A DNA stretch of 64,000 bases from a virus (IMGVR_UViG_3300023110_002336:1-64000), one strand, 5' to 3'; shown: positions 21,901 through 56,543, numbered from the stretch's first letter. The notes: generated by a model not told the origin, from the letters alone. Made by a program: numbers and translations.

Positions 21901-21978
21901 ACCAGCAGCCTGTCTCAATAACTCAGAAGAGCCAGAGAACAAGTTCAGGTCTATAATTCTAGTGGTTTTTGTGGTCAT
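18928..21978 (-). CDS. Large virion structural protein, probable baseplate component
   Basis: The 1016-residue product has no signal peptide. It opens with MTTKTTRIIDLNLFSGSSEL and has a Tyr/Asp/Asn-rich N-terminal half. A predicted coiled-coil stretch lies at about 535-560 (ILQTRMDLLTQEMGVLQDKI) and another at about 685-720. The C-terminal third contains short beta repeats and ends in KLDINIGFKKEVRK. Size, composition and location in a run of structural genes next to gp6 and gp25 point to the tail or baseplate. I recognise no named domain. It is followed by a 35-base gap, one of the two longest in the window. Confidence 0.7.
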   Translation of the reverse strand: MTTKTTRIIDLNLFSGSSELLRQAAGGYYGDLARTGDVSFVEANVADIGGVESVDASEVDTTSDTILPKVKYASRLYVDEGHGFLSDEDWRTFIVGGTYADKTYSGLYNEAVYADHANNSPLPYVPREAVNNNNIEPSLVLTTEYFNYYPRFQSEVNSLESELQAPNYYLLDSASYLVPSYNNEIVQSRYQYSNLTTFLTGGYVNSPKPLDTRMENIFVLDEDILDDNNDTRLDTSDLNSDFIDSDLSKLYSLMPFGNKLEIKQDLANPDPRLSSRRFREVIRDHNYELKFTKLLKEIFQGESRLQPATINFAVNTETESSTGVLTGSLETTTTIPVRLVDAPTMLLYAYQNPMSETNNIAVLNSGSYQEQIDYALDVSGSYRYENTEKSLSVLNDFVAKIKNNFETEKTYPLQNFLNQADESKYHETVAFRIEKIGGAPTGDARTENTIQNIWFYNADGAITYLDTQVKYNSDYTYKVYKYDLVQGYKYQLSDVVATRQIATEGEGTSKVYCLEFYDPFSGQTRQSLLDGFNELSILQTRMDLLTQEMGVLQDKIDEIAPLYETNLEFANSVFSFSREETIQVPDGRGGTEPRIVEREYRISDDFYFGLYLSTFYGDPNFIGIPYFIEETTLDDNIFSTFGLIPFERIIGQVESGEIPEDVLFIRNYEEFVAFREEFQNIQDTINQQKQQYESEKAELSRDRMMLGMARLRLSRVSDNELFTNSQTNSNYPHLADFRITIEPSLKIVEIPLEEKRMRIVDHPPNDLVITPHHLLDQSNRLAFYCKYDTFSMNAVTYPPALNARDTQNKDAYLTGHDFLQISKLTQESVSRPRFLEVYRTTTKPTSYDDFSGNLRTTIDLKQENGDIPTDHLFIERVRDNAIYYYVFRSLNENGIAGQFSPVFESELINDGGYVYGRFQQHSEEDLAVIDTKDPLSVVKKLFNVVPNIQHLVLDSSNVDLNNSSVSEIDNISLGSSNLTDPLITSDPGRYFKIRLTSKKTGRKLDINIGFKKEVRK

Positions 21979-21979
21979 A

Positions 21980-22642
21980 TTAGTATCCGCGTGTTGTTAC
22001 AGTTGTTGTTCCCGTTATGAGTTCCGTGAATACAACATCTGTGCTTTCTATTTCTCTATCTCTACCAGCACCTGATAGTCCACCGACATCGGTAATTGTT
22101 TCAGCTTCTTCTGTAATTAGTCCCGTTACAGAACCCGTTGTTGCTGAAATTGTAAAGCCTTCTTGGGATATAGCGCCAAGAGAAGAGAGTGAGTTGTAAG
22201 ATATCTGCTCTCCTACTACGGAGTTTTGGATTCCAATGTCTGCGCGGGTTGGAGTTTCATCAAGATCGATTTGTAGAACGGGCTCTTCGTCTCCATATAA
22301 GCTCTGTAGTCTTTGTTTTTCTTCTTCAGAATAAGAGAACAGATATGAGTTACCTCCTTCCCTTATTATTTGTATTAAATAATCAGCAATAGAGGTATAT
22401 TTCCATAAGTTAGTATCGTCTTCTGCAATAAATGACTCTCTAGAAATTACAAATATTTTATTGCTTTGTTGTACTTGCTGTCCTAGGTTCGGGGAAAAGC
22501 CGTACATCAGACTTTCCAAGAAGTAATTGTTTCTAAAATTTATATTTTTTAGGTACTGGGGAGTAGCATATCTTATTATTAGAGGGCTTAGCGCTGATTC
22601 GGCAGAATTAGCTTTTTCTGTTTCTATTATTGGAATTTCCAT
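21980..22642 (-). CDS. Small structural-module protein, unknown
   Basis: The 220-residue product has a polar N-terminal domain with IRYATPQYLKNINFRNNYF (about 23-41) and an acidic, Thr/Gly-rich C-terminal tail (130-220) with many TTGTV-like runs. No membrane segment or enzyme motif is seen. It abuts the large structural gene downstream with one base between them and is preceded by four bases, so it belongs to the same transcript. A virion or assembly role is inferred from location only. Confidence 0.62.
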   Translation of the reverse strand: MEIPIIETEKANSAESALSPLIIRYATPQYLKNINFRNNYFLESLMYGFSPNLGQQVQQSNKIFVISRESFIAEDDTNLWKYTSIADYLIQIIREGGNSYLFSYSEEEKQRLQSLYGDEEPVLQIDLDETPTRADIGIQNSVVGEQISYNSLSSLGAISQEGFTISATTGSVTGLITEEAETITDVGGLSGAGRDREIESTDVVFTELITGTTTVTTRGY

Positions 22643-22646
22643 CTTA

Positions 22647-23054
22647 TTACCTCTTTAAGTTCTTCATCTTTATAGCAGATATTTTTTTATAAACTTTTGT
22701 GCTTTTTTGTTTTTTCAAAACATTCTTTCTCAACATTTGTTGATTTTCATCTCTCGCTTCATCAAAGTTGTATATAGGATCTGTAATTTCTGAGAATGGC
22801 TTTTCCAAAGAAGCTTTGTCGTTTTTTAGTCTATCGAAGTCTTGTGTTTCTAAGATGTTGGGATTTTGTACAAACTCTCTTCCCAAATCAAGATTCTTGA
22901 ATGAAAATGCGGCGGGCGTTTCTTCAATAGTTATAGAACTTTGCCCTACTGCTTCTTCCACTTCTGATACCGATAAATCCAAATCTATCTTTTTAACAAC
23001 TATGTTTAAGCTTTGTACATTGGCTAATTGTTTTTTGTTTATAAAGTCAGGCAT
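22647..23054 (-). CDS. Small charged protein in tail module, unknown
   Basis: The 135-residue product is Lys/Asp/Glu-rich and ends in a basic tail (KSTKVYKKISAIKMKNLKR). Its first part, FINKKQLANVQSLNIVVKK, could form a helix and strand; the acidic middle may be disordered. It lies one base from the 864-residue structural gene upstream. It could be an assembly chaperone or linker; nothing specific is visible. Confidence 0.58.
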   Translation of the reverse strand: MPDFINKKQLANVQSLNIVVKKIDLDLSVSEVEEAVGQSSITIEETPAAFSFKNLDLGREFVQNPNILETQDFDRLKNDKASLEKPFSEITDPIYNFDEARDENQQMLRKNVLKKQKSTKVYKKISAIKMKNLKR

Positions 23055-23055
23055 T

Positions 23056-25650
23056 TTATGGTCTAATCATCCTCATTCCACTAGCAGCATAGCTTGTAAC
23101 CATTGCGTTATAATTTGCGGCTGCTGTAGAATATAAATTTGCATAATTGTTTGTATATGCATTTTGAAATTGTATTGAATTTGTATTTCCCTGCGTCAAA
23201 TAGCTACTATAGCCCACATTTGCTAAATTCAAAATTTTATTCATAAAGCTCGATGAAAAATCTCGTGGGACCCCCACTTGTATAACAACAATATCAAAAG
23301 CTCTTTCAACAAATGAAACAAATGCTTGCTGAGCCTGCATATTATTTAAATCGTATTGCCGAGCTACTTCTCTTATAAGATCCTCAATTAAGATCTTATC
23401 AATCTTTTCTGTTCTGAGATAATCCGTTATTAATGCAGCAATGCTTGTATTTGTTTCTGTATCGGTCTCTTCTATAGTTGGTATCTCTATTTCTAATTCG
23501 TATTCGTCTATGATACCAACACTTACAACAAATGTTTTTTCAAATTCTTTATTTGGATATGCTCTCAAGGTCTTGCCGCCTCGACTATCGTCATCGTATA
23601 TTGACGGAGTAAGGGCATCAAAACCTTGTTCATATCCAAAATATGTGTTATAGAAATTTGTAAATTCTACTAAAAATTCTTGTAAATAAGACAGATCACC
23701 AGAGCTTGGAGAAATTTGCCTGCTTTTCAAAATAGCGTTGTTCTTAACAAGCGACATATTAATCAAAGAGCCATCTTTCTTTCTGACGCCCCCGCTGATT
23801 TGTTGTGGATCATCCCAAGAACTTTCAATTAGTGCCTTTATACAATAGTAATATAGTGGGGCGTTTTCCCACACAAAAGGTTCTTCAAATTCAGATTCAA
23901 TCGAGTTCACAAAAAAATCATTGAATCTGTTATCTAAGTTATTGTAGCTACAAAATTGTTCGGCAAATTCAGTGTATCTTTGTAAATCAGATATCAAAGT
24001 TTCTAATTTTGTTTTTATGAACTTATCATAAAAGTTCATAGTTTTCTCTTCTATCTCAACAATTACTCTGTATTCTATTGGACCATTTGTTGCTTGTTCT
24101 GCTGATTCTAAATCCACCATTTCGTAGTTCTTGAATTTGTAGTTGTTCAATCCATCAACAGTATCGAATGCTCTTTCTATCAATTGTCTATAAGTCGTCT
24201 TCCCACCAGAGAAAGAAAAATCATTAAAGCTTTTTGGATTTTGTTCTGTGTGCGACAAATTCCTTGAAAGATATTGTTCTTCGTATCCTTTGCTATCTGA
24301 ATAGACAACCTTTTGTTCTAAAACTTGCGACTTATTACGATTGTGGTATGCAAACTTCTCAACCATTATGTTTTTGATTCTGTAATAATTGTTGAAACAA
24401 TTGACTCCAAAAATCTGTTTCAGATTGTATGGGTTGAAATAATTGCTTATTCTTGATTCATAGTTTAGATTCTTTTCGTAATCAAAAAAGATGTAAGATA
24501 AGTTCTTAACGATAAATTCATCACCAATTACAGGCATCGTAAGTGTAGATACTGCTGGTTTCAAATATCTTGAAACAAATGGTAAGTATATGTATTCGCC
24601 AGCGGATTCACTAGTCAATGTGGTATTCAAAGAATCAACGCTGGATATAAAAGTCCGATCGCCTCTTCTATCTTTTATCTTCGTGTTAGTCTCAAGCCTT
24701 TTGTTGAGAGTCGTCTCGGCTTGTAGAAGATTATCGATATCGGCAACAACGTCAACAAGCTGTGAATAAAACTGTCCAGTTGTTGTGGCGGAACTCTTGT
24801 TGGTAAAAGAGTTAATATCCTTTTCGAGTTGCGTCAGTAGGGCAGGGTCGTTCGAGTATTGAGATAAGGTCATCGATATCTTGTCGGCTTCTGGGATTGA
24901 GCCAACATAAGGAGATACTACTGGGTTGACCAAATCGATTACTCTTTGGTGGGTAATCTTGTTGGTTTGCTTGTATATCTTACCAAGAGATTGTAAAGGG
25001 GTCTTGCCGTAGTAATTGCCGTCTGGTTCTTGATAAGCGTTTTGCTTGCCTGTATTTAGGGTACCATCGGCATTGAGGATTTTTTCGTAAACCAAGTCGG
25101 ATGTCTGGTTTCTGTAAAGTGCTCTTTCGGATTTTGTTGCTGCACTCAACACGTCTTTTTCAAAATTACCTTCAAATTCTAGTTCAGAAGAAGGTGAAGT
25201 GAATGAAGTAAAGGCGGCAAAATATCTATCTCTCTGCAAATTGAGGAAGCCCGCTATTTCCGTGTATTCAAAAGTCACCAAGCACTTAGCAAATCGCTTA
25301 CCTTCAGAGTTATAGTGATACTCTATATTTTGGAGTGGTTCTGTTATTTCGTAATCATTTATATTGAAATGTAAAGCAAAGAAACTGTTCTTGTAGAAAT
25401 TACTTTGAGAATTAGGGTTGATTGTCCTATTGAATTGATCTTGTTCTAAGAAAGCACCAAATACACGAAGATTCTCGTTTATTCTACCGATAAGATTGTC
25501 TGTTTCGGCTTGTTCAAGAGGCACCTCCAAAAACAACATAACGTCTGCTTGGATGGCGTCATCGTATACCCTTATCTCTTGGATAAAAGGCTTTGGAAAT
25601 AGTTTACCAAAGCGTTCCGTGGTATCACCCTCAAAGATTAATCGGGACAT
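23056..25650 (-). CDS. Large virion structural protein, probable baseplate component
   Basis: The 864-residue product begins MSRLIFEGDTTERFGKLFPK, followed by an IQEIRVYDDAIQADVMLF stretch with a beta pattern. It continues with alternating polar helices and Tyr/Asn-rich segments, for example RYFAAFTSFTSP and YLPFVSRYLKPAV, and ends in an Ala/Asn/Tyr-rich helix (NNYANLYSTAAANYNAMVTS). No membrane segment is present. It overlaps the preceding structural gene by 13 bases. A baseplate or tail position is inferred from the neighbours. Confidence 0.68.
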   Translation of the reverse strand: MSRLIFEGDTTERFGKLFPKPFIQEIRVYDDAIQADVMLFLEVPLEQAETDNLIGRINENLRVFGAFLEQDQFNRTINPNSQSNFYKNSFFALHFNINDYEITEPLQNIEYHYNSEGKRFAKCLVTFEYTEIAGFLNLQRDRYFAAFTSFTSPSSELEFEGNFEKDVLSAATKSERALYRNQTSDLVYEKILNADGTLNTGKQNAYQEPDGNYYGKTPLQSLGKIYKQTNKITHQRVIDLVNPVVSPYVGSIPEADKISMTLSQYSNDPALLTQLEKDINSFTNKSSATTTGQFYSQLVDVVADIDNLLQAETTLNKRLETNTKIKDRRGDRTFISSVDSLNTTLTSESAGEYIYLPFVSRYLKPAVSTLTMPVIGDEFIVKNLSYIFFDYEKNLNYESRISNYFNPYNLKQIFGVNCFNNYYRIKNIMVEKFAYHNRNKSQVLEQKVVYSDSKGYEEQYLSRNLSHTEQNPKSFNDFSFSGGKTTYRQLIERAFDTVDGLNNYKFKNYEMVDLESAEQATNGPIEYRVIVEIEEKTMNFYDKFIKTKLETLISDLQRYTEFAEQFCSYNNLDNRFNDFFVNSIESEFEEPFVWENAPLYYYCIKALIESSWDDPQQISGGVRKKDGSLINMSLVKNNAILKSRQISPSSGDLSYLQEFLVEFTNFYNTYFGYEQGFDALTPSIYDDDSRGGKTLRAYPNKEFEKTFVVSVGIIDEYELEIEIPTIEETDTETNTSIAALITDYLRTEKIDKILIEDLIREVARQYDLNNMQAQQAFVSFVERAFDIVVIQVGVPRDFSSSFMNKILNLANVGYSSYLTQGNTNSIQFQNAYTNNYANLYSTAAANYNAMVTSYAASGMRMIRP

Positions 25651-26603
25651 ATTTCTGACTCCGTAACTCTGCCGTAGATATCAAAATAGATATCCTCACC
25701 CTCGACATCTGAACAATCAAAGTCTAGGTCTATTAAATAGTTTTCTGTGTTAAACTGCTCAACATGCCTACAAGCAGTTTTTGGATCTACTTGAGTATCT
25801 GTTAGTATAGAGAAATAATATTCAACGGAAGACGTGGTTAATGTTTGCACATTTCCTACTGGCTGCGCTGAAACCAGCATTCCATTGACAATTTGTGGCT
25901 CTGTTTTATTGAAATATAATCTTCGGAAATCATCATCCGGGGAGTTCGATACCACTTCAAATACTTCAATATCAAAGTTCTCAGTCAATAATTCTGTGTT
26001 TAGTTCTTCAAGATAAATTAGAGGATGATTGGTAGACAGCTTTACCCTTTTACCATCTGAAAATTCTCCAACAGTGTTTAGCTCTGCCATTGTTTCTAAA
26101 CCAACAGCTAAATCTTCAGGCTGTACTGCTTCAAGAATGTAGGACGCAGTAATGTTGATTTGTGGAACTTTTGATTTGTTTCTCAGATCTTCAAGCGCAG
26201 AAGATGTGATGTAGTTCTGCAAACTCACGACCTTCCAAGCAGGCGCTACGTTGGTATCTTTTGAGAGTAGTTTGGCGTCTCCAATAAAGCCATCAGAAGT
26301 TAGAAGACTCTCTTCTTGCTCATAGATGGTATCCTGAAGAATACCACCCTGTACGATAGCTCCGCTCATTACCTGACGGAATAAGGTCTGACTCTCAAGG
26401 TATTGTGTCTCTTGCTTGATACGCTTATGGATATCGTTTTGTGGTTCGTCTACAGAAGCAGAAGAATAACGAATATCATAGAGGACATTATCATCAAAGA
26501 ACGCATAATAGGTTGGCTTGAGAGTTCCAGCACCCAACTTGTGTTTTCCATAAGGAGTAAGTTGGATGTCGAACACTTGCTCTTTCTTGTTTAGGAACTT
26601 CAT
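25638..26603 (-). CDS. Virion structural protein with shared N-terminal baseplate module
   Basis: The 321-residue product begins with MKFLNKKEQVFDIQLTPYGK and continues HKLGAGTLKPTYYAFFDDNV. This follows the D-x-x-LT-x-x-G...G...T-x-x-A-x-x-DD...Y pattern also found at the start of the 337-residue protein at 17879-18892. The remainder is acidic with a beta tendency, ending in an unusual Asp/Cys-rich tail (LDFDCSDVEGEDIYFDIYGR). It overlaps the giant gene upstream as ATGA, so production is coupled to that protein. I infer a baseplate linker. Confidence 0.74.
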   Translation of the reverse strand: MKFLNKKEQVFDIQLTPYGKHKLGAGTLKPTYYAFFDDNVLYDIRYSSASVDEPQNDIHKRIKQETQYLESQTLFRQVMSGAIVQGGILQDTIYEQEESLLTSDGFIGDAKLLSKDTNVAPAWKVVSLQNYITSSALEDLRNKSKVPQINITASYILEAVQPEDLAVGLETMAELNTVGEFSDGKRVKLSTNHPLIYLEELNTELLTENFDIEVFEVVSNSPDDDFRRLYFNKTEPQIVNGMLVSAQPVGNVQTLTTSSVEYYFSILTDTQVDPKTACRHVEQFNTENYLIDLDFDCSDVEGEDIYFDIYGRVTESEICPD

Positions 26604-29600
26604 TGCGGCTCTTCTTGATCTGCCTTGTAGAGAACATCGGCTTCTAGCTTAACTAGTTCTACGAAGGAAAGGTAATCGTATGGCCAGTTGAACTGGAGGT
26701 ATTCATCATCCTTGTCGGTCTCGGGCTTATCGAGGTTGCTTGTGGGTCTCGCTGCCTTGACCTGTGGCGGGATGAGATCGTAGTAATCCTTTGTTGCCTT
26801 CTGCTTGACCTTGAAAACCATCCAACGTAGGTTGGGGTTATCCATCAAGTTACTTTCATCTAGAAGCTCGTTGTTCATTAGATCGTGAGCAACCTTTGCT
26901 TCTTGGAATGTAATCTTCTTGTAGTCTCTCGGAGCAAGGTTCTGCCAGATGTAGGAGAGATCGTCCTTGTCAAACTCGTACTTGAACTCAAAGAAGTACA
27001 TTACAATGGGATCAATTTCATCAAAATTGATGAAGTCGAATTGTGGTGGGAGAACGTAGCGCTTCATCTTCTGAACCATCTTACGGATGCTCTCGCCTGC
27101 TGCTTCTAGTGAATCGCCATCTTGTGAGCCCTCACGTTCCTTTAGTGCCGCTCTAAAGCGCTGCCTTGGTATGTTTATAAACTTCTTGCGGTTCTTGTCA
27201 TCGTCAGTCTTGGCATTTCCGTAATCTTCGTTTGCTTCAAGAATGTAAGGAATTGCCACAACCGCTTCATATACCTCTCTCTTATCCGCAATTTCTCCAA
27301 GGCGTACCTTTGCGCTGTCTTTTTTCTGAGAGCGTGAGAAGCCGAATAGGTCGCTTAATGACTGATAATCTAGGTAGGCTGTGGAGCCTGAGCCTAGTGG
27401 GTCGTTATTGTTGTATGATGAACTCATGTTGATCACATCATAGTGATATTTAAGCCAGTCGTTTGGAATATCACCAATTTCTAGGAACACGCCTGTATCT
27501 GGATCTGTCGGCATTTCGCCAAACTGGTGCCACATACCACGGGGAACTGACTCGGAGAAGTTAGTTGGGTAGGTAATATTGTTGCTATCTTCTTTCACGT
27601 TCGCGAAATTAAGCATCGGGGTTTCCCACTTAGGCTGAATAACCCAGCGCTTGCCTGCGAGTTCGTTTTGATCTAGAATTGTGTTTCCGAATTTGTCTTT
27701 GCGCTTCTTGGGGACTCTCTCGACACCGAAGAGGTTGAGAGAAGAATCAAGTTGCATTGCGTTCTTGTTGATTACGCTTCCACCATAAATTGCCTGCTGA
27801 CCAGAAATACCACTGCTGGCGTCATAGCCATGGTCTATGAGTGCTCTTTGAAGATTGGAGTAGCCGTCGAGGTTGCTGTCTGCGGTGCCTTCAATTATTC
27901 TGCCCGGATCAACGCGCCAGTATATTGCCTCGGTTTCAGTAAGAATATCTTCAAGTGTATAAGTTTTGGTAGAATCTGGACGGAAAATAAAATCAACCCA
28001 AGACTCGCCGTGGTAATAAGGCGGCGTGTATGCCCAGTTGTATCCCTCTAGTGAGTCAAGAGTTCCACTTAAGAATGCATCTGCATGATTCTCAGAAGAA
28101 TCAGAGTTTCTGCCACTGATAGATGGACCGAACGCAGTTGGACGAGAATACATTGTAAATGTTTCTTGAAACTCAGAATTGTGTGCAGGATCTTGGGGAA
28201 TCGGGAATGAAGCACTCAAAGAGATCACATTGCTTCCGGTGCTGCGAGTTGCTAAAGCGCCATTTGTTGAGAAGTACTCATTATCTCCGGTGGAGCCAGA
28301 TTCACTATTGTAGAACCTTTTACCATTATGAGACTTTCTGATTTTTAGTCTCGCAGCAAAAACATCGCCATCTTTGAACTTGAGTCCATCTTGGATAAGA
28401 TCAGACTCAATTTTGGTGTAAGAAGAGTTCTTCAAGAAGAAGTCGCCTGTCTGTCCAAAGAAGTTCTTTGCCATAAGTTCGTAAATTCCGTCTGAGACAG
28501 AAGTGTCAAGAGAAGCTGTTATATTTATAGAAGCAGAAGGGTGTGGCTCAAAGTCTAAGAACTCAACTTTGTCTATGTATTTTCCGGGTTCGATCATAGT
28601 CTCGAATGGAACACGAAGGTCCCAATAAGAATTTTGCGGGTTATAATCATCCAAAGACACTTCCGAAGAAGTTATCGGAATTAACATGTAGTTTTCAGCG
28701 TCTGCATTAGAGCCGGTGAAGTTAAATGTTGAAATTTTCTTTTTGTTATTGACAACCGGATAATCAACAGCGATTCCAGATTTAATGGAGTTGTAGAGGA
28801 TACCGGGAGAGAAAAGGGGCTGGATCACTGGTCTATAAATTCCAGACACAGAGCCATTAAATCCTCCAACAGTGTTGGTGCCTCCCCCTAATTTTGGATA
28901 AGTAGCACTAAATCCAGCAGCAAAAGAACTTGAGAACTGGCTTACCAAGTCAAGCGTTCTCTGTGCTGGGTAGAAGCCCTTGTAGGGATTGAAGCGAACT
29001 GCTGCCTTACAGGTCAACATTATTTCTTTCGCATTTAGTCCGGACTTATCCTTGATGCTTGCGAACTCTCGCAAGAAGTCAGAGTTAGAATAGTCCTTGT
29101 AGAAGTTCTGCTGTGAACTGCTGATTGTTGTTCCGGGGATCTCAAATGTGTCGAAGTTAAACTTGTTGAAAGTTCCGCCCTTGACGTATTCGTTAATGTG
29201 TTCTGAGATTCTGAACTCTGGAATAATGGCGTAATCTCTCGCAGCAAGTTGCAACTCTTCGCGGAAGTCCCCATATTCATCGAACCAAGGCTCAGATCGG
29301 TAAGAAGAAGTTATGAAAGAACTACCAGACTTGACGTTAATTGTGGCATAAGTTCCTGCTTCCCACAACGCCTCACCAGCACCAATTCCAATCTGATCTG
29401 TAAATGAATCAGGCGAACTACTAGTTTTGGCAAAGCCTGTTCTTGAAACAACCGAGTTTGGTGAAGTCAAGTTCTGCTTTCTAGAATAAAGAGCAGATGC
29501 AGCATTTAGAATTGCTTTAGTAGAGTTAGTTGGGAGATAAATGGGTGTAGATGATTTTACATAAGCCATCAAGTAGAGGTTTTGTAGCTCTCCTGCATTG

Positions 29601-32600
29601 CCCTCTAGCGATGGAGAATCATAGTTAGAAGCTGTCAAGTAATCTGTAAAGCTGGAGCCATTGAAGTTTCCTGTCAAGATTGCTGTTCTATCAATGAAGT
29701 TGTCAGGAGCATCCAAAATCCAACTACTTTGCGAGACAACAAGATTGAATGAGTTTGTAAATGAATTTCCTAGTTCTGCTCTATCGCTACGACTATCTCT
29801 CCAGAACTTGTTGTCGTAGCCAAGTCTCTCGCGTGAGCCGCTTGAGAATTCGTTTCTTGTGGACGGGAATAGGGTTTCAGAGTAATGGATCCAGTTTAGG
29901 CTAGAACCTTGCTGTTGAGATACTTCTAACAACTGGTCAAATGGGGTGAGTGTTGGATCTTCTTTCTCGAACACAAGGTCATTCAATTCGCGCTCGTTGA
30001 AGTAGATCTTCTCGTTGTTGTGTGTTGTCTTGAGGGAAACGTTTTGCCCGTCAACATCCATGTTGACCACAACTGGGCGACCACGGAGAGAAACCGGTGG
30101 TAGTCGGAACTCTCTGATTGTAGTTCCCTTGACTGCTGTGAGTAGGTTTTCTTTGTGTTCTCGGTCCAAGATCGGGTGATCTTTCTGGTGGAGGGCACGC
30201 CAGTTCCAGCCATATGTGTCACCACGATGGATAAGCAAAGCGTTTAGTCTCTCGCCTTCTGCGGGTGTCTGTAGTGCGCCGCTGATTGTTGGCTCGCCAA
30301 GAGTGTTTATGGCAGAACCAGTCTTATCGAGAACAAGCAAGTCCAATCTTGTTGTGTTCTGGTAGATTCCAGATGTAGCAGCAGATGCTGACACATAATC
30401 AAAGAACGGGTAGTAGTTACCTGTGATCTCGTAGTAAGGTGCGATAGGCGAGTTTACCTGCATGAAGCCAGAGTAGCGTGGCTCGCAAGCACCTGTATGA
30501 GTAATTGAGTGTGCAAACCAAGAGTATTGGCGATCAGAGCGTGGGATCTGGTGGTGTAGATTTAGGTTGTCGTACTTTTGGTCGCAGACAACTTCTGTAA
30601 GTGTATTTGTAACAGTTTCACTAAATGTATCAAAAGTCGATGCCGTGATTTGTAGCTGACCTGCTGTTGTGACCGCTGCTTCAAAGTCATTAATGCCGCC
30701 TACATCTACGACTGCATCACCGTCAGATAGATTACCTACTGATGCATCTCCAGTAGAATCACCCATTCTGAGATAGAAATACATGTCACTAGATTTTACA
30801 GAATCTGGATCCCTATCTATGTCGTAATACGAGCCAGAATTATACAAACTATCTTTGTTAGCATCCGAAAGTTGCCCATTCCAGAAGCCAAACTCATCAA
30901 TTAGATAGTCTCTGCCTTGGTTGTTGACATTAGGGTTCCAAATTGTTCCCCTACCGATAGCGTGCCTATGGTTAGAGCCGTAAGTGATGTTAATTGGATC
31001 TGAGAAAGAACCGATTGGGGTTGAGTTACTTGCAGTATTGTTAATCCAAATCTCAGGCTTATTGCTTGAATCTCCGTCCCAACGTATAAAAATGTGGTTC
31101 CATTGATCTCTGGTAACTGTATTAGCACTCAAGTATCTTATGTCGCTAGATTTTGAACTCTCATCAGCATCAGAAAAAGCAATTGCTATTTGAGAATCGG
31201 GACTGTTATTTGTTAGAGAAATCTGGAGTGGTGAAAATTCATCATCTAATGAACCAGTAGGGACATTTAACGAGAAAATGTGCTTAACAACATTGCTACC
31301 GATTGTCTTATCATCATAAATCCAGAAAGAAAAAGTCATCTCTCTAGAAGTTAAATCAAAGTTACGAGTAGATAAGCTTTTAGCGTCTGTTGTGTCTGTA
31401 AAACGTAAAGAATTTTGATTTTGATAGGTTGTGGTGGTAATTGTTTCTACTTCTCTAGCCTTTATGACATTGTTTCTATGAACTTTGTGGAATGATGGCG
31501 CTTCGGTAAACGCATCGTCAGCTTTTCCGGGAGAATTTAAGTCAGGGGTGTTTCTTGGCACGTTGGAGAAGTCAGTGTCGCTCTCAACGTGAGAATCACG
31601 GAAGAATCTAGTAGCATGACGTGCAGCCAAGTTTGTAAAACCAAAGTCTTTGCCAGTGTGATCGAAACTTCTAATTCCTGTTGTCTGAGAAACAATCGAA
31701 GAAGTTACGCCTTGGAATGGGCGACGTGAAGTAAGGTTTCTGTTGTTAATTGTGTTGTAGACTGAGAAGTCACCAGAACGGAAGTCCTTGAAGGCAGGAG
31801 TCATAGACTCGAAAGAGCCGGGAGATGAGAAGCGGTTGACTATGACAGTCTTATTTTTGTAGTCTCCGGACCCTGTTAGGTAGCCAGCGTTGTAGTCGTC
31901 AACGAATGTAAAGTGTCCGTTTTTCCCTCTTTCGATGTCAAGAATAGTCTTGACAACATCAGCGCCTTCTGCTACAGTCGGTAGTGTTGGCTGTTCGTCA
32001 ATGAATGCTCTTGGGTTAGAGTAGCCGCCTACAATATGGACAACATCGTAGTTATGGTTGTAGTTGCCAAGAATGGTTGAACCAGTTCTGTGCTGAATGT
32101 TGCGAATGTTGACAGGGCGCTTGGCGGTTTCGTCGCGGAAGTAAGTTGCCTTCATAGCACCAGTCATGGGGTATGGTGTTTGCCCTTCTTCGTTGGCTTC
32201 GGGGTAAGGGTAATCTGCGCCGACCATGCCGATAGCACCGTCAGTGTTGGGGCACTTGCCTAGGGCAATCTTCCAAGCCTCAGGGCGGTTTAGGTAGTTG
32301 TCTCCACCAGTGTTAAGTTTGATGTGACGAGATTGATGCCCACCAACAGCGTAGTTAGTGAACGGACCCTGCATTGGGCGTTCCATGTCGGGACCATAGA
32401 CATCGTTGTGGAGGTTTGTGATTTCAATGCTTGCTGTTGCTCTCGCGATAACATGCGCGTTGTAGCCAGAACGAACAGAGGAAGAGACGATGTTGAATGG
32501 GAATGCCTTTGATGATTTAACGTTCTTGTAGCCGAGTCCATCTTCCCAATCGCGACCGTGTTGAACGAGAATGTTTCTCTTGACCTTAGCTGCTGGGTTC

Positions 32601-35600
32601 TCGGGAGGATCGCTTGTGTCTTCGAGAGCAACAAGATCATCTGTAAATCCGAGAAGAACGTTCTTTGGAATAAAGATGTTGTCGGTTTGGTTTATTGGAC
32701 CTGCGGGATGTAGAGCGGTATAGGTGTAGTGAATGTCCTTGTCGTCTGTAAAGTTGACGCCGCCCTTGATTTCTCTTATTCTCTTTGACTCGAACACTTG
32801 ACCCTTGGATAGAGTGCGGTACTTGAAGTTTGAGCGTGAGTATTTGACGCCTGCGTTAGTGAAACTTCTACCAACACCGCCATTAGTCTGGTTTGTGCTA
32901 ACATTGCGAATCTGAGTTCTGTCGGAGTCCACAGCAGCATCACCAGAAGAAATTGTACCAGCACGCTCAGCACGCTCCTTCCACCAGTTTGAGTTATCGC
33001 GTTCTAATCCGCTTACGGGGGCGTGGTTTCTATCCCAGTTGTAGCGCAACTCTTCTGCACCGAAAGCAACGCCCTCGGTTGAAGAAGTGAAAGCCATCAT
33101 CGGGATTCTGTGTTGGAACTTAGCACGCTCCAAAACGTGTGATTCTACTGTGTTTAGAATATCTGATGTGTATTCAGCAGACGCTGGGATAAGCTGCCCA
33201 ATGATCTGAGATACAGCATCATCGAACCACTTGTAGTAATCTACGAAACGTTCTACTTCTGTGACGTTTGTGACTCTGCGGAAGAAGACTTCTCTTAGCT
33301 TGTTGAGACCCTTGTACTCCATCCTGTACATATGAACAGGGTGTCCAATTAGGTTATGGAAATCATTAACGCCTGCGAAGAAGTTTAACATCTCCTCGGA
33401 GATTGCGTTATACATACTCTTTTCAAGAACGTGGTGGTAGTTGGGAATTGTATCAACAGAATCAAAAAGTTTATCGTCATCTGTTCTGATCTGAACAAGA
33501 TTGTCCCCGATTACCAACTCTGGGTTGATAAACTGATGCGTGTTGACTTCTTTTTTGAGAACAACGTCGGTTGCGTTAGCCTCGAAACCAAATCCAACGC
33601 CGGGGTATAGATAGCCAGAGATGGCCCCTAGTTCTCCGTATTCTCCGCTTCTAGCCTCGGTAGATCCAGAACTGATATCTGTGACCGAGAAGCCGCCTGT
33701 TCCATCAGCGCCAGTTACGTTGCCGAACTCGTAGTTGAGAGCGAGCGTGTGACGGTTTAATGTTTTGTTGTTATCGTTGTCTAAAGCAGATAAATGTTGG
33801 CTGGCACTAACAATTCCATAATTTTCAAAATCAAACGCATGTTGCTGTAAAGAAATTTCGTCAAGGTATTTCGTCCAGTATCTTGTAGCAGTTACAAGAA
33901 CATCTGATTTGTATTGTAACGCACCTGTGACGTTTGTTCTATGAGCACCAACGAAGATTCTCTTTGGAGACTTGAGAAGATCTTCTGCACTTGTTGCTGA
34001 ACCGGTTACCTTGAAGCTGTTTCTGATCTCTCCAAGCCTCTGATTGTATCCTGAGAATTCTAGGGTGTAACCAGAGGCTGCTACACCTTCAACAGAGCCT
34101 GTTAGTCCGAGACTATCCGGCTTGATACGAACTGAAAGATTCCAATCTTCATCATCATAGACGCCGTGGAAGAGGCTACTTGAGATTTCGCTTGTGAGCA
34201 TAGAAGAAGAAAGAACAAATTTTACATTCTTTGAGTAGTTCTCGTCTCTCTCGGCATAAACGTAGAAGCTTGGGTCGTATACATCGGTCCCTGCTGTATC
34301 AGCACTAGCAGAGTGAAGACCGAATAGCGATACTCTTGTGAAATTGCGATCGAAAGTATCGATAAGCTTGATGAACTTGGGGAATATAACGTCAACTTCG
34401 TGGGTCAATCCGTAGCGAAGTTCGTGAGAATCCAATCCAGAGCCATAAATGTAGCCCAATTGTGTTGAATCAGTAGAACCAGACGAGTAAACAACCGCAC
34501 CAAGATGGTCTTTGTTGTTGAAATTAACAGAAGACTTTTTCAAAGTTGTCTGTTTTAGATTATTTTCAAGTTCATATGTGAAGTTGTTAGCGTAAGTATT
34601 GAATCTTACTAGCTTATCATCGATGTTGAAAGCGCGAAGAACGTTTCTAACAGCCTTTTCGGTACCCTTTGACTTGAAAATGTAAGTTAAGTTGTTGTAA
34701 AGGTTAAGATAAATAAGGTTTTTAACTTCTTCTAGGTCATTCTCGAAGGCTTCGGATTCGTTTCTATTGAGAAATTTCTCCATAACAGTCGCATCTACGA
34801 AGATTTCTGGTGTTTCTAGACCCAAAGAAGCTGGCATGTGCTTCGCAAATGGGATTGGTTTATAGGAGGAACTGGTGTAAATTGGTGATTTGAAAGTGGA
34901 AACAGCCTCGATTTGGAGGTATAATTTGTCAAAATATGTACCAATTATATGACTTAGGTACTTGAAGTTGGTGTTTCCAAGGTCCTCGTGCTCTTCCATG
35001 ATCCAACTTGGCATGAAAGTCGCAAAAGCCGCGTTATTGCGCATGTCATGGTCTGCACCCTTGCTTATGAGACTTGTTTTGAGACTAGATACGCTTGGAT
35101 GGGTAGCATAAATGATAGGGTCAAGGTACTCGCTTGTAGCAGCGCTTGCGGATACAATTGCAGAACCAGTGTTACGAGTGCTTGTGGTGTAGCCGGTGAA
35201 GGTACCGTTAGAAATGCGACCAGAGTAGTCCAAAACTATCTTATCTGTCGCCTCTACGCCTGTTATGCCCTCGTTAAATTTGTAGTAGACCCCAAGGGTA
35301 GTGTTAGAAATGTCGGTGTTAGAACCGCCTCTGACTTGACCAAACCAGTTTCTACCGATCTCTTGTGCTGTTCTCTCAACTTTCCAGAAACGGAACTCGT
35401 CCATAGAACCTGAGAAATAAAGGTGCCCTTCATCATGAGAACCAGAGCCAATGTAAGCAAGGGTCTCTGGTTGTGTAAGAGTGTTTACACCGTCGGTACC
35501 AAGAGTTGTTGTCTGATCGAGAACACCATTGAGGTAGAACTTGGTTGTGATACCAGCACTTGCGCTCTTGAACGAGACAGCATAGTGATTCCAGTTTTCT

Positions 35601-36346
35601 ATAGATGAGGTATCTGGAGTGGAACCAATTTGTTCATCTCCAAAAATATCAGAGTGCGAGGCGCTAAGAGTGGCAAAGAAAGGTGAGCCAGCAGAGTCAG
35701 AAAGATATAAGGTAAATTCGTCACCACCAGAAGAGTTGGTGAGATGAAAGATTGCTCTTTTTTCGCCAGCACCCAACTCATGATTCTTAAGCCAGAATTC
35801 AATAGTGACACCCTTTTGGAAATCACACTTTAGGTTCGACTCTCTGGTTCCCTGACCGTAATCAGATGGCAAACCCTCAGTAGTGTATAAATCTTCATCG
35901 TAGATATTGGCAGTCTCTCTTTGGGAAGACTTTGGATCCTTAAACAGTCCCTTCGTAGAAGTCGAACTGATTGTGTGTGGACCGCCCTTGAAAGAGATGT
36001 AAGAGTTTGAAAAGTTGACGTATCCGTTGGTGCGAGGATAGAGAGTATTGAATATAAATTTCTCAATATCCAGAGACTTGTTGTAAAACTCGTTGTATTC
36101 TGCGTCAGACCCGTCGTATGGATAGAAATCAATGATACGATCGATAGCAGACTGGTAGTAAAGCTCGGCAGAACCAAAACGAGCAAAAGAGAGAGGATCA
36201 TTGTAATCTATCTGTGGCTCGAAAGTATTCTGCTTTTCAGAGATAGCGGCTACGTTTCTTGACGACTCTGCGTCAGTAAAAGCATCTTTCTGGTTTGTGT
36301 CTGAAACGTAGTTTGTTGAACGCTCGAATAAATCTCTAGTACTCAT
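26600..36346 (-). CDS. Giant virion protein (3248 residues) with two LamG-like domains
   Basis: This is the largest gene in the window. Two stretches fit the laminin-G/concanavalin-like jelly-roll pattern. The first, about residues 175-340, has TIEFWLKNHELGAGEKRAIF, NWNHYAVSFK, KFYLNG and FSGSMDEFRFW. The second, about 1660-1830, has MTFSFWIYDD, QWNHIFIRWDG and LIDEFGFWNG. Such domains bind glycans or protein surfaces. The rest alternates Tyr/Asn/Ser-rich beta regions and helices, and the last 350 residues are charged and helical. There is no signal peptide. It overlaps its neighbours by 11 and 4 bases. I infer a tail or baseplate appendage involved in adsorption; a peripheral fibre or a wedge scaffold are both possible. 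Confidence 0.78.
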   Translation of the reverse strand: MSTRDLFERSTNYVSDTNQKDAFTDAESSRNVAAISEKQNTFEPQIDYNDPLSFARFGSAELYYQSAIDRIIDFYPYDGSDAEYNEFYNKSLDIEKFIFNTLYPRTNGYVNFSNSYISFKGGPHTISSTSTKGLFKDPKSSQRETANIYDEDLYTTEGLPSDYGQGTRESNLKCDFQKGVTIEFWLKNHELGAGEKRAIFHLTNSSGGDEFTLYLSDSAGSPFFATLSASHSDIFGDEQIGSTPDTSSIENWNHYAVSFKSASAGITTKFYLNGVLDQTTTLGTDGVNTLTQPETLAYIGSGSHDEGHLYFSGSMDEFRFWKVERTAQEIGRNWFGQVRGGSNTDISNTTLGVYYKFNEGITGVEATDKIVLDYSGRISNGTFTGYTTSTRNTGSAIVSASAATSEYLDPIIYATHPSVSSLKTSLISKGADHDMRNNAAFATFMPSWIMEEHEDLGNTNFKYLSHIIGTYFDKLYLQIEAVSTFKSPIYTSSSYKPIPFAKHMPASLGLETPEIFVDATVMEKFLNRNESEAFENDLEEVKNLIYLNLYNNLTYIFKSKGTEKAVRNVLRAFNIDDKLVRFNTYANNFTYELENNLKQTTLKKSSVNFNNKDHLGAVVYSSGSTDSTQLGYIYGSGLDSHELRYGLTHEVDVIFPKFIKLIDTFDRNFTRVSLFGLHSASADTAGTDVYDPSFYVYAERDENYSKNVKFVLSSSMLTSEISSSLFHGVYDDEDWNLSVRIKPDSLGLTGSVEGVAASGYTLEFSGYNQRLGEIRNSFKVTGSATSAEDLLKSPKRIFVGAHRTNVTGALQYKSDVLVTATRYWTKYLDEISLQQHAFDFENYGIVSASQHLSALDNDNNKTLNRHTLALNYEFGNVTGADGTGGFSVTDISSGSTEARSGEYGELGAISGYLYPGVGFGFEANATDVVLKKEVNTHQFINPELVIGDNLVQIRTDDDKLFDSVDTIPNYHHVLEKSMYNAISEEMLNFFAGVNDFHNLIGHPVHMYRMEYKGLNKLREVFFRRVTNVTEVERFVDYYKWFDDAVSQIIGQLIPASAEYTSDILNTVESHVLERAKFQHRIPMMAFTSSTEGVAFGAEELRYNWDRNHAPVSGLERDNSNWWKERAERAGTISSGDAAVDSDRTQIRNVSTNQTNGGVGRSFTNAGVKYSRSNFKYRTLSKGQVFESKRIREIKGGVNFTDDKDIHYTYTALHPAGPINQTDNIFIPKNVLLGFTDDLVALEDTSDPPENPAAKVKRNILVQHGRDWEDGLGYKNVKSSKAFPFNIVSSSVRSGYNAHVIARATASIEITNLHNDVYGPDMERPMQGPFTNYAVGGHQSRHIKLNTGGDNYLNRPEAWKIALGKCPNTDGAIGMVGADYPYPEANEEGQTPYPMTGAMKATYFRDETAKRPVNIRNIQHRTGSTILGNYNHNYDVVHIVGGYSNPRAFIDEQPTLPTVAEGADVVKTILDIERGKNGHFTFVDDYNAGYLTGSGDYKNKTVIVNRFSSPGSFESMTPAFKDFRSGDFSVYNTINNRNLTSRRPFQGVTSSIVSQTTGIRSFDHTGKDFGFTNLAARHATRFFRDSHVESDTDFSNVPRNTPDLNSPGKADDAFTEAPSFHKVHRNNVIKAREVETITTTTYQNQNSLRFTDTTDAKSLSTRNFDLTSREMTFSFWIYDDKTIGSNVVKHIFSLNVPTGSLDDEFSPLQISLTNNSPDSQIAIAFSDADESSKSSDIRYLSANTVTRDQWNHIFIRWDGDSSNKPEIWINNTASNSTPIGSFSDPINITYGSNHRHAIGRGTIWNPNVNNQGRDYLIDEFGFWNGQLSDANKDSLYNSGSYYDIDRDPDSVKSSDMYFYLRMGDSTGDASVGNLSDGDAVVDVGGINDFEAAVTTAGQLQITASTFDTFSETVTNTLTEVVCDQKYDNLNLHHQIPRSDRQYSWFAHSITHTGACEPRYSGFMQVNSPIAPYYEITGNYYPFFDYVSASAATSGIYQNTTRLDLLVLDKTGSAINTLGEPTISGALQTPAEGERLNALLIHRGDTYGWNWRALHQKDHPILDREHKENLLTAVKGTTIREFRLPPVSLRGRPVVVNMDVDGQNVSLKTTHNNEKIYFNERELNDLVFEKEDPTLTPFDQLLEVSQQQGSSLNWIHYSETLFPSTRNEFSSGSRERLGYDNKFWRDSRSDRAELGNSFTNSFNLVVSQSSWILDAPDNFIDRTAILTGNFNGSSFTDYLTASNYDSPSLEGNAGELQNLYLMAYVKSSTPIYLPTNSTKAILNAASALYSRKQNLTSPNSVVSRTGFAKTSSSPDSFTDQIGIGAGEALWEAGTYATINVKSGSSFITSSYRSEPWFDEYGDFREELQLAARDYAIIPEFRISEHINEYVKGGTFNKFNFDTFEIPGTTISSSQQNFYKDYSNSDFLREFASIKDKSGLNAKEIMLTCKAAVRFNPYKGFYPAQRTLDLVSQFSSSFAAGFSATYPKLGGGTNTVGGFNGSVSGIYRPVIQPLFSPGILYNSIKSGIAVDYPVVNNKKKISTFNFTGSNADAENYMLIPITSSEVSLDDYNPQNSYWDLRVPFETMIEPGKYIDKVEFLDFEPHPSASINITASLDTSVSDGIYELMAKNFFGQTGDFFLKNSSYTKIESDLIQDGLKFKDGDVFAARLKIRKSHNGKRFYNSESGSTGDNEYFSTNGALATRSTGSNVISLSASFPIPQDPAHNSEFQETFTMYSRPTAFGPSISGRNSDSSENHADAFLSGTLDSLEGYNWAYTPPYYHGESWVDFIFRPDSTKTYTLEDILTETEAIYWRVDPGRIIEGTADSNLDGYSNLQRALIDHGYDASSGISGQQAIYGGSVINKNAMQLDSSLNLFGVERVPKKRKDKFGNTILDQNELAGKRWVIQPKWETPMLNFANVKEDSNNITYPTNFSESVPRGMWHQFGEMPTDPDTGVFLEIGDIPNDWLKYHYDVINMSSSYNNNDPLGSGSTAYLDYQSLSDLFGFSRSQKKDSAKVRLGEIADKREVYEAVVAIPYILEANEDYGNAKTDDDKNRKKFINIPRQRFRAALKEREGSQDGDSLEAAGESIRKMVQKMKRYVLPPQFDFINFDEIDPIVMYFFEFKYEFDKDDLSYIWQNLAPRDYKKITFQEAKVAHDLMNNELLDESNLMDNPNLRWMVFKVKQKATKDYYDLIPPQVKAARPTSNLDKPETDKDDEYLQFNWPYDYLSFVELVKLEADVLYKADQEEPQ

Positions 36347-37754
36347 AATCTTCTACTCTGAATAGGAATTTCTGGTCTTGCTCAAGCCAGCTTTGGCGTT
36401 GAGAGTCATAGAACGCAAGCTTGATGCCATACTCATAGCCGGGCTCAAGCAAGGACATATCAAGGTTGAAATAATTTCCTGAGACATCGTAAGAAAGGAG
36501 TGTTTGAAGTTCTGATCCTGTGCCGTGTGGAATAGCATTGTAACCATCTAAGACTCTATAAACTCTGTATGATGCGCTAGGAATAATAGTATTTTCTATT
36601 TCACTTGACGCTACTGTGTAAATAGTTGGGGACCAGTTTTTGCTTCGGACATAAACGTTGAAGCGTGCTTCCTCTTCAGAGAAGTATTTGTTTCTAAGAT
36701 TCTTGATCTTTGTGATGTAACGGTTGTTACCAGTTGATACAGCAGCAGCACCGAAGGTTTGAGGAGAAATTGTTCCCGTAAAGTATTCAGTGCCCTCAGA
36801 ATACCAAACATCACGTAAGGTTGTGTAGGTTCCTGTGATACAAACTGAGCAAGAGTATATGCCTGTTGACACATAGCCGCCTGTTGCTGGTGTGTTGATT
36901 TCTTGCGTTAATGCGGTGCCGCCGAGGGTCTGGTAAAGATCGACGTAGATTTCTCCTGTGCCAATCGCTGGGATGTTGGTCAATTGGCCACGAACGTAGT
37001 TGTAAAGATAGAGTGTGTTGAGGTTGTCTGCTGCTGGTGCGAGAGAAGAAGACATGTAGAAGTCGCCTCTATCATCTTGTGTTGAAGAGTTCCAACGAGC
37101 TTCGATTACAGGCTTCTTGAAGAAGTATTGTGTGCCTCTCGCAAAGAAGCGCTTGGTGTAATACGATGTTGTGTCGCTTTCTACTGAGGAAGTAAGTCTT
37201 ATACCGATACCATAGTTGTCTTTTGTGCCATCGATCCATTGTTCAACAAGATCAGAAATGTCTATTTCTAAATCCTCCAAACCGCTATCAAAAGTCTGAG
37301 TAAACACAGGAGTTTCATGATAATCACCACCAGCCGAACTCCATGCAGTGGTAGTAGATGCTGAAACCCAGTTTGATTTACCAATGTCTTTGTAGTTCTC
37401 CAAATCTAAACCATCGCCCTCATTCCAAGCTCTTGAAATTGCTTGTGCTACTACTGTGAAGTTTTTTGGGACAGTCTGAGAAGTTTCAGCATTGTATAGA
37501 CGCAAGTAAAAACTCACACTGCCAGAAGCAGGAATTACACCGGCTGTTCTATCTGAAGATATTGTAGATACGCTGAATTGGGTAAGAACGCGAGAGAGTT
37601 CCGAAGAAGTCAAAGAAGCGCGTCCATAAATTGAAAAAACTTCACTAACATCTGCCTGACCCATGTTTGAGCCAGTTGCTCTTACTCCTAGCCCATCTTT
37701 GAAGGCATTTGTAATTGTATTATCGGCACTTGCCACATAACGTCTAATAGCCAT
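36336..37754 (-). CDS. Virion structural protein with DNRLRE-like domain
   Basis: The 472-residue product begins MAIRRYVASADNTITNAFKD. Residues about 60-220 follow the pattern of DNRLRE-type beta domains: SFYLRLYNAE, then AISRAWNEGDGLDLENYKD, IDISDLVEQWIDG, YGIGIRL and a closing KPVIEARW. The C-terminal half contains repeated beta-sandwich-like stretches such as YSCSVCITGTYT. It sits between gp6 and the giant LamG protein and overlaps gp6 by one base (TAATG), so it is a baseplate or fibre component. The domain name is from recalled pattern and needs profile confirmation. Confidence 0.72.
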   Translation of the reverse strand: MAIRRYVASADNTITNAFKDGLGVRATGSNMGQADVSEVFSIYGRASLTSSELSRVLTQFSVSTISSDRTAGVIPASGSVSFYLRLYNAETSQTVPKNFTVVAQAISRAWNEGDGLDLENYKDIGKSNWVSASTTTAWSSAGGDYHETPVFTQTFDSGLEDLEIDISDLVEQWIDGTKDNYGIGIRLTSSVESDTTSYYTKRFFARGTQYFFKKPVIEARWNSSTQDDRGDFYMSSSLAPAADNLNTLYLYNYVRGQLTNIPAIGTGEIYVDLYQTLGGTALTQEINTPATGGYVSTGIYSCSVCITGTYTTLRDVWYSEGTEYFTGTISPQTFGAAAVSTGNNRYITKIKNLRNKYFSEEEARFNVYVRSKNWSPTIYTVASSEIENTIIPSASYRVYRVLDGYNAIPHGTGSELQTLLSYDVSGNYFNLDMSLLEPGYEYGIKLAFYDSQRQSWLEQDQKFLFRVEDYEY

Positions 37755-39550
37755 TATCTTAACTTACCTTTGATGTCTACTTGGGGAAACTTAATTTCAA
37801 ATATTGCATTCTTTGGGCAAACCAAAGAATCTCCATCTGGTGACATATTTTCTGCTATTGAGAAAAATACGTTAGAATAATTTGATGATGTTTTATTTAC
37901 AAACTGAACTTTAACAACATCATTAACACCGGGCACGTTGTTCAAGACATTGAAAATTTTTGAGACTGAAAGAGGCTCGCCTACAAAGAGTGGTGTTGAA
38001 AACTCATTTGCTAATGCAGCTACACAGTTATTTAGGACATCAAATTTATTTGCATTCATCTCTGGTTTAATCACAAAATTAATTCCAAGATTGATGATAA
38101 ATGTGTCAAGAACATCAACTGTATCATTAATCATCCGATAATGATTAAGCCAAGTTTTTATATTTTCTTTAATTGTGTTATTTGTCTGTTCGAGTTTGCC
38201 TTCTGGATTTTCTGATATGACATACACATTAAGATTTCTTTTTTGTGAATCTGGATCCTTTTGAACTGAGCAACGCTTAATCGACCCAAAGCTAGATGGC
38301 ATTCTATAAACTAGATTTTCATAATCTCTTTGAGTTACGGCTCTGTTCTGAGTTGGAAATGTGTCATAAATTCTTTGTTTTATTTCTGCCGAACTGGGAT
38401 TGGATACGTTTCCGGCAATTGGTGTTTCGTTATTTACTTCAAGGGAGGATCTAACTGATTGCACAACTGGTGCCGAAAGCACCGAAACATCTTCAAACTC
38501 TAGTATCCTGTTCCCTACTGTGTTAATTGAATTTGCTGCAACATTGGCGTTTGTTGGATTTGTTTGTCTATACAAAATTGTCAATGTTGTGTTTTGTGGA
38601 ACTATACCATAATATTTATTTGATACTAGAGTGCTAGGATCAAAAGAAGTGTCTGTAACGTAAGACTTGCCAAATACATCTATAGCAAGACTTTGCGGCT
38701 CTGCCACAACATCACCTGCGTATTCGTCCCCGCTACCAAACTGTAAAGAGACACCGTTGTTATCAAAAACAGTTACAAACTTTCGATTGACAAGAAGTGG
38801 CTTTAAGACAGATGGCACATTATCATTTTTATAATTTTTATTTGTTAGTTTTTTAAATATCGTATCTTGAGAAAGATTTTCAACTTCAAAGTATTCATTA
38901 CCGTCTGAATCTAAAACACTGATTATTTCTGATACATTTAACTCTGATAACTGAACCCTTCTAAACCTCTGAAACGCACCAATTTCTACCGTCTCAGTGT
39001 TGAAAAACCCAGATACCACTTTTCCATATGACTTAATGGCGTAAAAAGTTGGAGCGCCTGTAGTTGGCTCTGTTCTAGCTACCACTATTGGGTTCGTGGT
39101 TTTTGCCATGTCTACATCATCAGTCAAAACAAATCCTAAGCCATTTGCAGAAGAAAAAGTTGTGCCTCGCTTTATGATTGGTATATATCTGTTGTCCGGA
39201 CCTATACCACTTGTTGAGGCTGGGACTAGAACATAGATAGCAACCGTACCGTATGTCGAAGGGCGTCCTGAGTTTTTGTATCCCATTATTCTGCCATGGC
39301 GAATAATGTTGTTTAACTGATAGGAGGTATCTAGAAATGACTCATTAACATTGTAATCTAGATAAAAAGAAAGCTGGTCACCAACATAAGCAACTGCATC
39401 CAGCATCATAGAGCCGAAAGAAGCCTCGCTAAAATCTTGAAATGTATCGGGATAGAATCGTTCTGCTATCTGATTCAAATCCTCTCTAATGCTCCCATAA
39501 TCTCTATTAGTATAGTTTATAGAGGGCGTTTTGTTGTTATGCTTTGGCAT
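37754..39550 (-). CDS. Baseplate wedge subunit gp6-like (baseplate J family)
   Basis: The 598-residue product opens with the recognisable gp6 start: INYTNRDYGSIREDLNQIAE, then a DFSEASFGSMMLDAVAYVGD block and SFYLDYNVNESFLDTS. gp6 dimers form the inner ring of the myovirus baseplate and link the wedges around the hub. T4 gp6 has 660 residues, so the length fits. It lies directly downstream of gp25, as expected for wedge genes. The middle has a beta-rich domain and the C-terminal third contains RAVTQRDYENLVYRMPSSFG, a conserved baseplate-J feature. The gene starts 15 bases after the gp25 stop. Confidence 0.9.
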   Translation of the reverse strand: MPKHNNKTPSINYTNRDYGSIREDLNQIAERFYPDTFQDFSEASFGSMMLDAVAYVGDQLSFYLDYNVNESFLDTSYQLNNIIRHGRIMGYKNSGRPSTYGTVAIYVLVPASTSGIGPDNRYIPIIKRGTTFSSANGLGFVLTDDVDMAKTTNPIVVARTEPTTGAPTFYAIKSYGKVVSGFFNTETVEIGAFQRFRRVQLSELNVSEIISVLDSDGNEYFEVENLSQDTIFKKLTNKNYKNDNVPSVLKPLLVNRKFVTVFDNNGVSLQFGSGDEYAGDVVAEPQSLAIDVFGKSYVTDTSFDPSTLVSNKYYGIVPQNTTLTILYRQTNPTNANVAANSINTVGNRILEFEDVSVLSAPVVQSVRSSLEVNNETPIAGNVSNPSSAEIKQRIYDTFPTQNRAVTQRDYENLVYRMPSSFGSIKRCSVQKDPDSQKRNLNVYVISENPEGKLEQTNNTIKENIKTWLNHYRMINDTVDVLDTFIINLGINFVIKPEMNANKFDVLNNCVAALANEFSTPLFVGEPLSVSKIFNVLNNVPGVNDVVKVQFVNKTSSNYSNVFFSIAENMSPDGDSLVCPKNAIFEIKFPQVDIKGKLR

Positions 39551-39565: not shown

Positions 39566-39934
39566 TTAAATAGTGAACTCCAGCAAATCTCTTGCAGCGA
39601 TGTCAGGTATAATATATTCTATTCTTAAGCCCAGACTGTTGTTTTCTATTTCCGCTACACCAAACTCAATGCTTGTTATCTCAATAACTGGTAAATATCT
39701 CTGTGTCTGATCTTTGATTCTTGAGTCTATTCTTGCGTAAACATCACTTTGAAAATTCTCGAATAAAAATAATTTTATTCCTACACCAAATTCTGGATCC
39801 ATTACTCTCTCACCGGGATTTGTCAAAATTAACATTTTGAAATTTTGTTTAATAAGAGTTTTTAAAGTTTTTATCGATGTATAGCCATCTCCAGAATCCA
39901 AAGTAAGTGGAAGTTTAGGTGCCAAAGAAGCCAT
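39566..39934 (-). CDS. Baseplate wedge subunit gp25-like
   Basis: The 122-residue product has the gp25/W-like fold signature: SIKTLKTLIKQNFKMLILT followed by NPGERVMDPEFGVGIKLFLF. gp25 joins gp6 and gp53 in the wedge and helps start sheath assembly. Length and the gp25-gp6 order fit the family. It has GAGGG before the ATG and follows the 2118-residue gene after 21 bases. Confidence is high. Confidence 0.92.
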   Translation of the reverse strand: MASLAPKLPLTLDSGDGYTSIKTLKTLIKQNFKMLILTNPGERVMDPEFGVGIKLFLFENFQSDVYARIDSRIKDQTQRYLPVIEITSIEFGVAEIENNSLGLRIEYIIPDIAARDLLEFTI

Positions 39935-56508: not shown

Positions 56509-56543
56509 CTACATCTCCAAAATATTCTGATATTATTTCTTTT

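Follow-up and report, generated by a model that had tools for sequence, protein, structure and literature searches.

A giant tail protein from a family of marine viruses, most likely a baseplate wedge subunit, with LamG-like modules apparently exchanged, gained and lost at fixed sites

In contractile phages, the receptor-binding domains are usually carried by separate fibres or spikes and are exchanged as a unit. If such domains were to lie inside a subunit of the baseplate wedge, host range and the trigger of contraction would be joined in one polypeptide. T4 gp7, P2 gpI and TssG are established counterparts of one another, present in one copy per wedge against two copies of gp6 or TssF (PMC6300606). 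Insertion loops of TssG anchor TssK, which resembles a receptor-binding protein, and this is, by analogy, a precedent for peripheral additions to the subunit (PMC6300606). Searching the literature for LamG or laminin G together with the baseplate, we found no paper (subscription journals being thinly covered), and among titles and abstracts on LamG in bacteriophage tails and on concanavalin-A-like domains nothing resembled the arrangement reported here.

We analysed a window of 64,000 nucleotides (IMGVR_UViG_3300023110_002336:1-64000), which is part of a 90.6 kb IMG/VR record, one end of which carries portal and terminase genes of T4 type (see Table 1 for the features discussed). The gene which concerns us is an open reading frame of 3248 codons on the minus strand, a strand which the initial annotation did not give and which is shared by all the tail genes described around it. 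The single gene of 9.7 kb encoding 3248 residues, as first annotated, is confirmed. Its product occurs in two other contigs (L001, 100% identity; L011, 99.8%), and its 41 distinct full-length relatives measure 2921-3968 aa, with a median of 3246. Hence, the giant protein is no assembly artefact, and its size is real and usual for the family. It has no family in PHROGs, and neither phmmer nor profiles of either half gave anything useful against the PDB sequences. Searching INPHARED by tblastn with the N-terminal third, with the C-terminal 1915 aa and with the C-terminal half (C-half) alone returned no match, so that the link to isolated phages was found only through synteny and profiles. Elsewhere in the window, also on the minus strand, one 1045-aa open reading frame (9285-12422) combines SbcD-like (residues 9-279) and SbcC-like (residues 329-1044) nuclease subunits, whose counterparts in T4 are the separate gp47 and gp46, while a glycan-biosynthesis block (50285-63614) holds two UDP-glucose/GDP-mannose dehydrogenases, a glycosyltransferase-like protein and a sulfotransferase-like protein.

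Table 1. Positions of the giant protein, of its parts and of neighbouring genes, counted from the first nucleotide of the window
Feature	Residues	Coordinates	Strand	Remark
Baseplate wedge gp25/gpW		39566..39934	-	upstream of gp6
Baseplate wedge subunit, gp6/gpJ type		37754..39550	-	between gp25 and the 472 aa protein
472 aa protein		36336..37754	-	between gp6 and the giant protein
Giant protein, most likely a wedge subunit	1-3248	26600..36346	-	single open reading frame, ATG start, 3248 aa
N-terminal helical region	1-160	35867..36346	-	well conserved within the family
LamG1	177-330	35357..35818	-	Laminin_G_3 profile above curated cut-off; jelly-roll model
Putative gpI/TssG/gp7-type wedge core	431-620	34487..35056	-	conserved block; profile homology
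Tail_P2_I (PF09684) match	558-604	34535..34675	-	sub-threshold; motif IFKSKGTEKAVRNVLRAFNID
Further predicted beta-sandwich	647-838	33833..34408	-	AlphaFold2 model; conserved part of the wedge core
Conserved stretch following the sandwich	961-1100	33047..33466	-	helical, low confidence; common to Mel-JY01, immuto and LR756508
Lectin cassette site	1601-1924	30575..31546	-	empty or holding differing LamG modules in relatives
LamG2	1657-1829	30860..31378	-	fills the cassette site of this protein; profile match
C-half	2055-3248 (1194 residues)	26603..30184	-	one compact predicted fold; separate open reading frame in few relatives
Downstream tail protein, 864 aa		23056-25650	-	26-35% identity in relatives
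Downstream tail protein, 135 aa		22647-23054	-	syntenic, fast-diverging
Downstream tail protein, 220 aa		21980-22642	-	syntenic; frequently undetected in relatives
Downstream tail protein, 1016 aa		18928-21978	-	41-52% identity in relatives

In the direction of transcription, the genes follow one another in the order gp25, gp6, the 472 aa protein and the giant protein. The Pfam family Tail_P2_I matches the giant protein over positions 73-122 of the 139 of the profile with 16.6 bits (E 3.5e-4), under the cut-off of 20.6 bits, and this match is the sole one in the 90.6 kb record. As it lies below the curated cut-off, we checked the signature across 47 related records, using Pfam's own model because the P2 gpI relatives which we fetched (n=80) were all at least 99% identical. 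No match was found in 30 of these records; in the other 17 it always falls inside a large open reading frame of the giant type or inside its homologue of 1310-1404 aa, at the same place as in the giant protein, and exceeds the cut-off in one record only (L026, 20.9 bits). The surrounding conserved block includes KSKGTEKAVRNVLRAFNID. In the predicted structure this block is modelled only moderately (pLDDT 47-93, mostly 60-85), the helices of the N-half are present with modest pLDDT, and the 50 Foldseek matches listed for the model of residues 1-1110 are dominated by jelly rolls, with no baseplate structure among them.

A profile of residues 1-1110 matches proteins whose genes lie a short way behind gp6, namely in Microcystis phage Mel-JY01 (WWT39511.1, 1336 aa, E 9e-18), in Flavobacterium phage immuto (QQO92079.1, 1265 aa, 8e-17) and in the huge uncultured phage LR756508 (open reading frame of 1404 aa, 3e-24), all of them annotated as hypothetical or left unannotated. 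The giant protein and these three homologues have in common the gpI core and a segment around profile positions 1023-1133, to which Mel-JY01 adds the second sandwich; neither LamG1 nor the C-half was detected in the three by profile. In Mel-JY01, the gene after gp6 (386 aa) has a sub-threshold match to CBM96.

Since the sub-threshold Tail_P2_I signature is unique in the genome and the gene comes after gp25 and gp6, the giant protein is most likely the third subunit of the baseplate wedge, in the position of gpI, TssG and gp7. Synteny, the Pfam signature and the homologous neighbours together make this assignment well supported as far as sequence comparison goes. The "tail protein" of the initial annotation can thus be narrowed down to a probable wedge subunit, and the same evidence speaks against a kinship with the tape measures and giant fibres to which its size had been compared. 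We rejected a tape measure on the fold, both modelled parts being mixed and largely beta, and on the locus, which is a cluster of wedge genes. Upstream of gp25 lies a 2118-aa protein (39956-46312, minus strand) for which neither Pfam nor PHROGs gave a family with a meaningful E-value, and just upstream of the baseplate genes an M23 peptidase protein (47361-48548, minus strand), possibly the equivalent of a tail lysozyme.

Against the whole giant protein, the Pfam profile Laminin_G_3 reaches E 4.1e-24 in two stretches, the best being LamG1. The segment 1640-1930 taken alone scores 30.6 bits (E 4.2e-7) against a cut-off of 27.6 bits, at about residues 1657-1829. When LamG1 was compared with a profile of the occupants of the LamG2 site, the HH probability was 98% (E 2e-13), while unrelated control regions gave 0.1-0.2% in the same profile-profile comparison. 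AlphaFold2, run on residues 1-1110 with 62 sequences (mean pLDDT 74.7, pTM 0.53), predicts a beta sandwich with confidence at LamG1 (pLDDT mostly 80-94). The top PDB matches of this model by Foldseek are a putative carbohydrate-binding protein of Bacteroides, pentraxins and laminin LG domains. This means that the two LamG-like domains described at the outset as jelly rolls of glycan-binding type more than 1300 residues apart hold as to number, type and separation (about 1330 residues), and that the structure prediction suggested as a check upholds the LamG1 pattern at the level of a model. These domains may bind glycans and act as receptor-binding modules. In several cases, Foldseek aligned the model with tandem LG proteins over about 680-770 columns, which suggests that the sandwich at 647-838 may be jelly-roll-like as well. 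However, LamG sequence-profile tests of residues 630-850 were negative (HH probability 0.5-4.5%); we therefore dropped the third LamG domain which the model had led us to suspect there, and speak only of a predicted beta-sandwich.

The second lectin sits in what we call a cassette site. Taking residues 1600 and 1925 as anchors, we scored this site in 52 marine viral loci, among about 80: in 33 of the 52 it is empty (a short linker of up to 50 aa), and in the other 19 it is occupied by an insert of 169-622 aa. Of the ten occupants compared with Pfam, eight match Laminin_G_3 above the cut-off and a ninth below it; that of L077 has no match in Pfam. The giant protein and its relative L008 are 93% identical at the cassette site and 79% in the backbone, whereas the giant protein and L006 are 25% identical at the site and 84% in the backbone. 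Yet L006 and L008 are sisters (backbone 87% identical, support 100/99), and the occupant of L006 is only 25% identical to that of L008 too. The identity between the giant protein and L006 shifts abruptly, from 90% at residues 1561-1620 to 32% at 1621-1680, and stands at 88% at 1921-1980. Within the clade to which these three proteins belong (backbone about 71-89% identity), five further close relatives are without an occupant.

Every member of the family whose sequence covers LamG1 has it, although insertions split it in a few of them. No other part of the N-half diverges as fast between close relatives (74% identity against 82-89% elsewhere in the closest band), a contrast which weakens as the distance between relatives grows. 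The LamG1 tree places L010 with L004 (100/100) and the backbone tree places it with L006-L012; this conflict is strong in AU tests (p 9e-38 and 5e-69), for which the groups were picked after the identity table had been seen. Further LamG inserts are found near residue 1390 (L023, L042), after about residue 1544 (L048) and inside LamG1 (L037), and the hinge at 1390-2030 is the place of most large insertions in the family. The exchange, gain and loss of lectin modules at fixed sites is thus well supported by comparison of the relatives, and the variability of the LamG regions, which the initial annotation had proposed to look for, was found both as swaps and losses of the cassette and as the tree conflict of LamG1. 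The pattern of exchange over about 80 loci constitutes a testable map of the sites where modules are swapped, and the swapping of modules of sugar-binding type suggests how these common marine viruses may change what they stick to.

Large size, a beta-rich make-up with lectin domains and modular exchange are also what one would expect of a side tail fibre or tailspike located outside the wedge. We find this hardly credible, as the N-half has the gpI-type core common to the proteins of 1265-1404 aa encoded near gp6, and as fibres normally anchor at one end and carry a lectin at the tip, whereas the lectins of the giant protein are internal and its putative wedge core is at 430-620.

As its lectin modules are swapped between relatives, it is plausible, though unproven, that the giant protein is the main device of host recognition, as had been supposed. 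However, the downstream tail proteins (18928-25650) are 26-52% identical in relatives, against 61-83% for the wedge genes of these relatives, and diverge faster overall than the backbone of the giant protein in the same relatives; hence other proteins may recognise the host and compete for this role. One can therefore imagine a wedge subunit whose LamG modules are accessory, serving in weak surface retention or decoration, while the fast-evolving downstream proteins choose the host. Such a division of labour would fit the fact that the downstream proteins of 864, 135, 220 and 1016 aa are syntenic and far more diverged than the backbone, as well as the empty cassette site in most of the scored loci, which indicates that its occupant is dispensable. 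We nevertheless regard it as rather unlikely: the divergence of the downstream proteins is spread along their length, with no sharp modular swaps, and neither of the two which were scanned showed a recognisable receptor-binding fold. By contrast, no relative which covers LamG1 lacks it, and the changes at the two lectin sites come in sharply bounded blocks.

The C-half is modelled (42 sequences) as a single compact unit with pLDDT 81.6 and pTM 0.87. It has no match among PDB structures (best E 1.4); seven BFVD proteins, none of them characterised, match it extensively (E 2e-84 to 7e-38), and beyond these and a fragment of one of the seven the search of BFVD gave no significant viral match. As its large fold is predicted with confidence and no structure of a relative has been solved, it is a good target for structure determination. 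At least 573 IMG/VR stretches encode it, and its lineage is, by these searches, common in marine viromes; the INPHARED searches found no isolated phage bearing it. Its role is probably that of a scaffold at the periphery, or of a platform on which the downstream proteins, themselves evolving fast, may dock. In a scan of prokaryotes with one genome per species, the only match to the C-half was in the chromosome of a candidate division WOR-3 MAG (CP070664.1), where a stand-alone open reading frame of 611 aa (L275, 5013-6848) is homologous to its last 520 residues; a search of this genome for a relative of gp6 found none at E 0.01, and the reading frame could be a phage remnant or a mis-assembly.

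The two halves are separate open reading frames in L060, L062, L067, L076, L267 and L269, and the hinge hosts most of the large insertions. Both facts would be accounted for if a wedge protein and the C-half had been fused and were cut apart after synthesis, so that virions would hold no chain of 3248 aa. This seems improbable to us, given that the halves are fused in 75 of the 80 loci encoding the C-half and clearly separate in only 2, and that no protease site was identified.

We consider it rather probable that the giant protein is the third wedge subunit of the baseplate of a contractile tail, about 2.5 times as large as its homologues in isolated phages owing to LamG modules at fixed places of the chain and to a C-terminal module (about 1200 residues) whose fold is new. 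In this scenario, the subunit would have expanded from an ancestral form of about 1300 aa. There would be one giant copy per wedge and six per virion, because of the 2:1 stoichiometry of gp6 to gp7 and of TssF to TssG. The lectins may stick out at the rim of the baseplate and bind cell-surface glycans at adsorption; their modules would be exchanged by recombination, each new module retargeting adsorption with the wedge core left as it is, and the binding signal would pass to the sheath through the contact of gp6 with gp7. More tentatively, and as a possibility on which we would not insist, the wedge subunit itself may be the changeable receptor-binding device of this abundant and uncultured marine lineage of phages with contractile tails, with lectin cassettes swapped at fixed sites inside gp7 and with the C-terminal module, whose fold has no counterpart among solved structures, as a new periphery of the baseplate.

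When compared with known systems, the giant protein resembles P2 gpI, T4 gp7 and TssG in its place after gp25/gpW and gp6/gpJ and in its partial match to Tail_P2_I, which stays under the cut-off save in one relative, but gpI of P2 has about 176 aa, to which the giant protein, with 3248, adds the LamG modules and the C-half of 1200 residues. With the proteins of Mel-JY01, immuto and LR756508 it shares a locus shortly after gp6, the gpI core and the conserved segment which follows; these proteins, however, have less than half its length and are those in which LamG1 and the C-half went undetected. Over most of its length, the fold of the C-half recurs in the seven BFVD proteins, such as A0A516M7I0 and A0A0F7LAZ6 (uncultured marine virus), and it has no relative in the PDB. 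Finally, both LamG domains and most occupants of the cassette site match the jelly rolls of Laminin_G_3 or pentraxin type, but the copies of the giant protein sit within what is most likely a wedge protein and appear to be exchanged between viral lineages.
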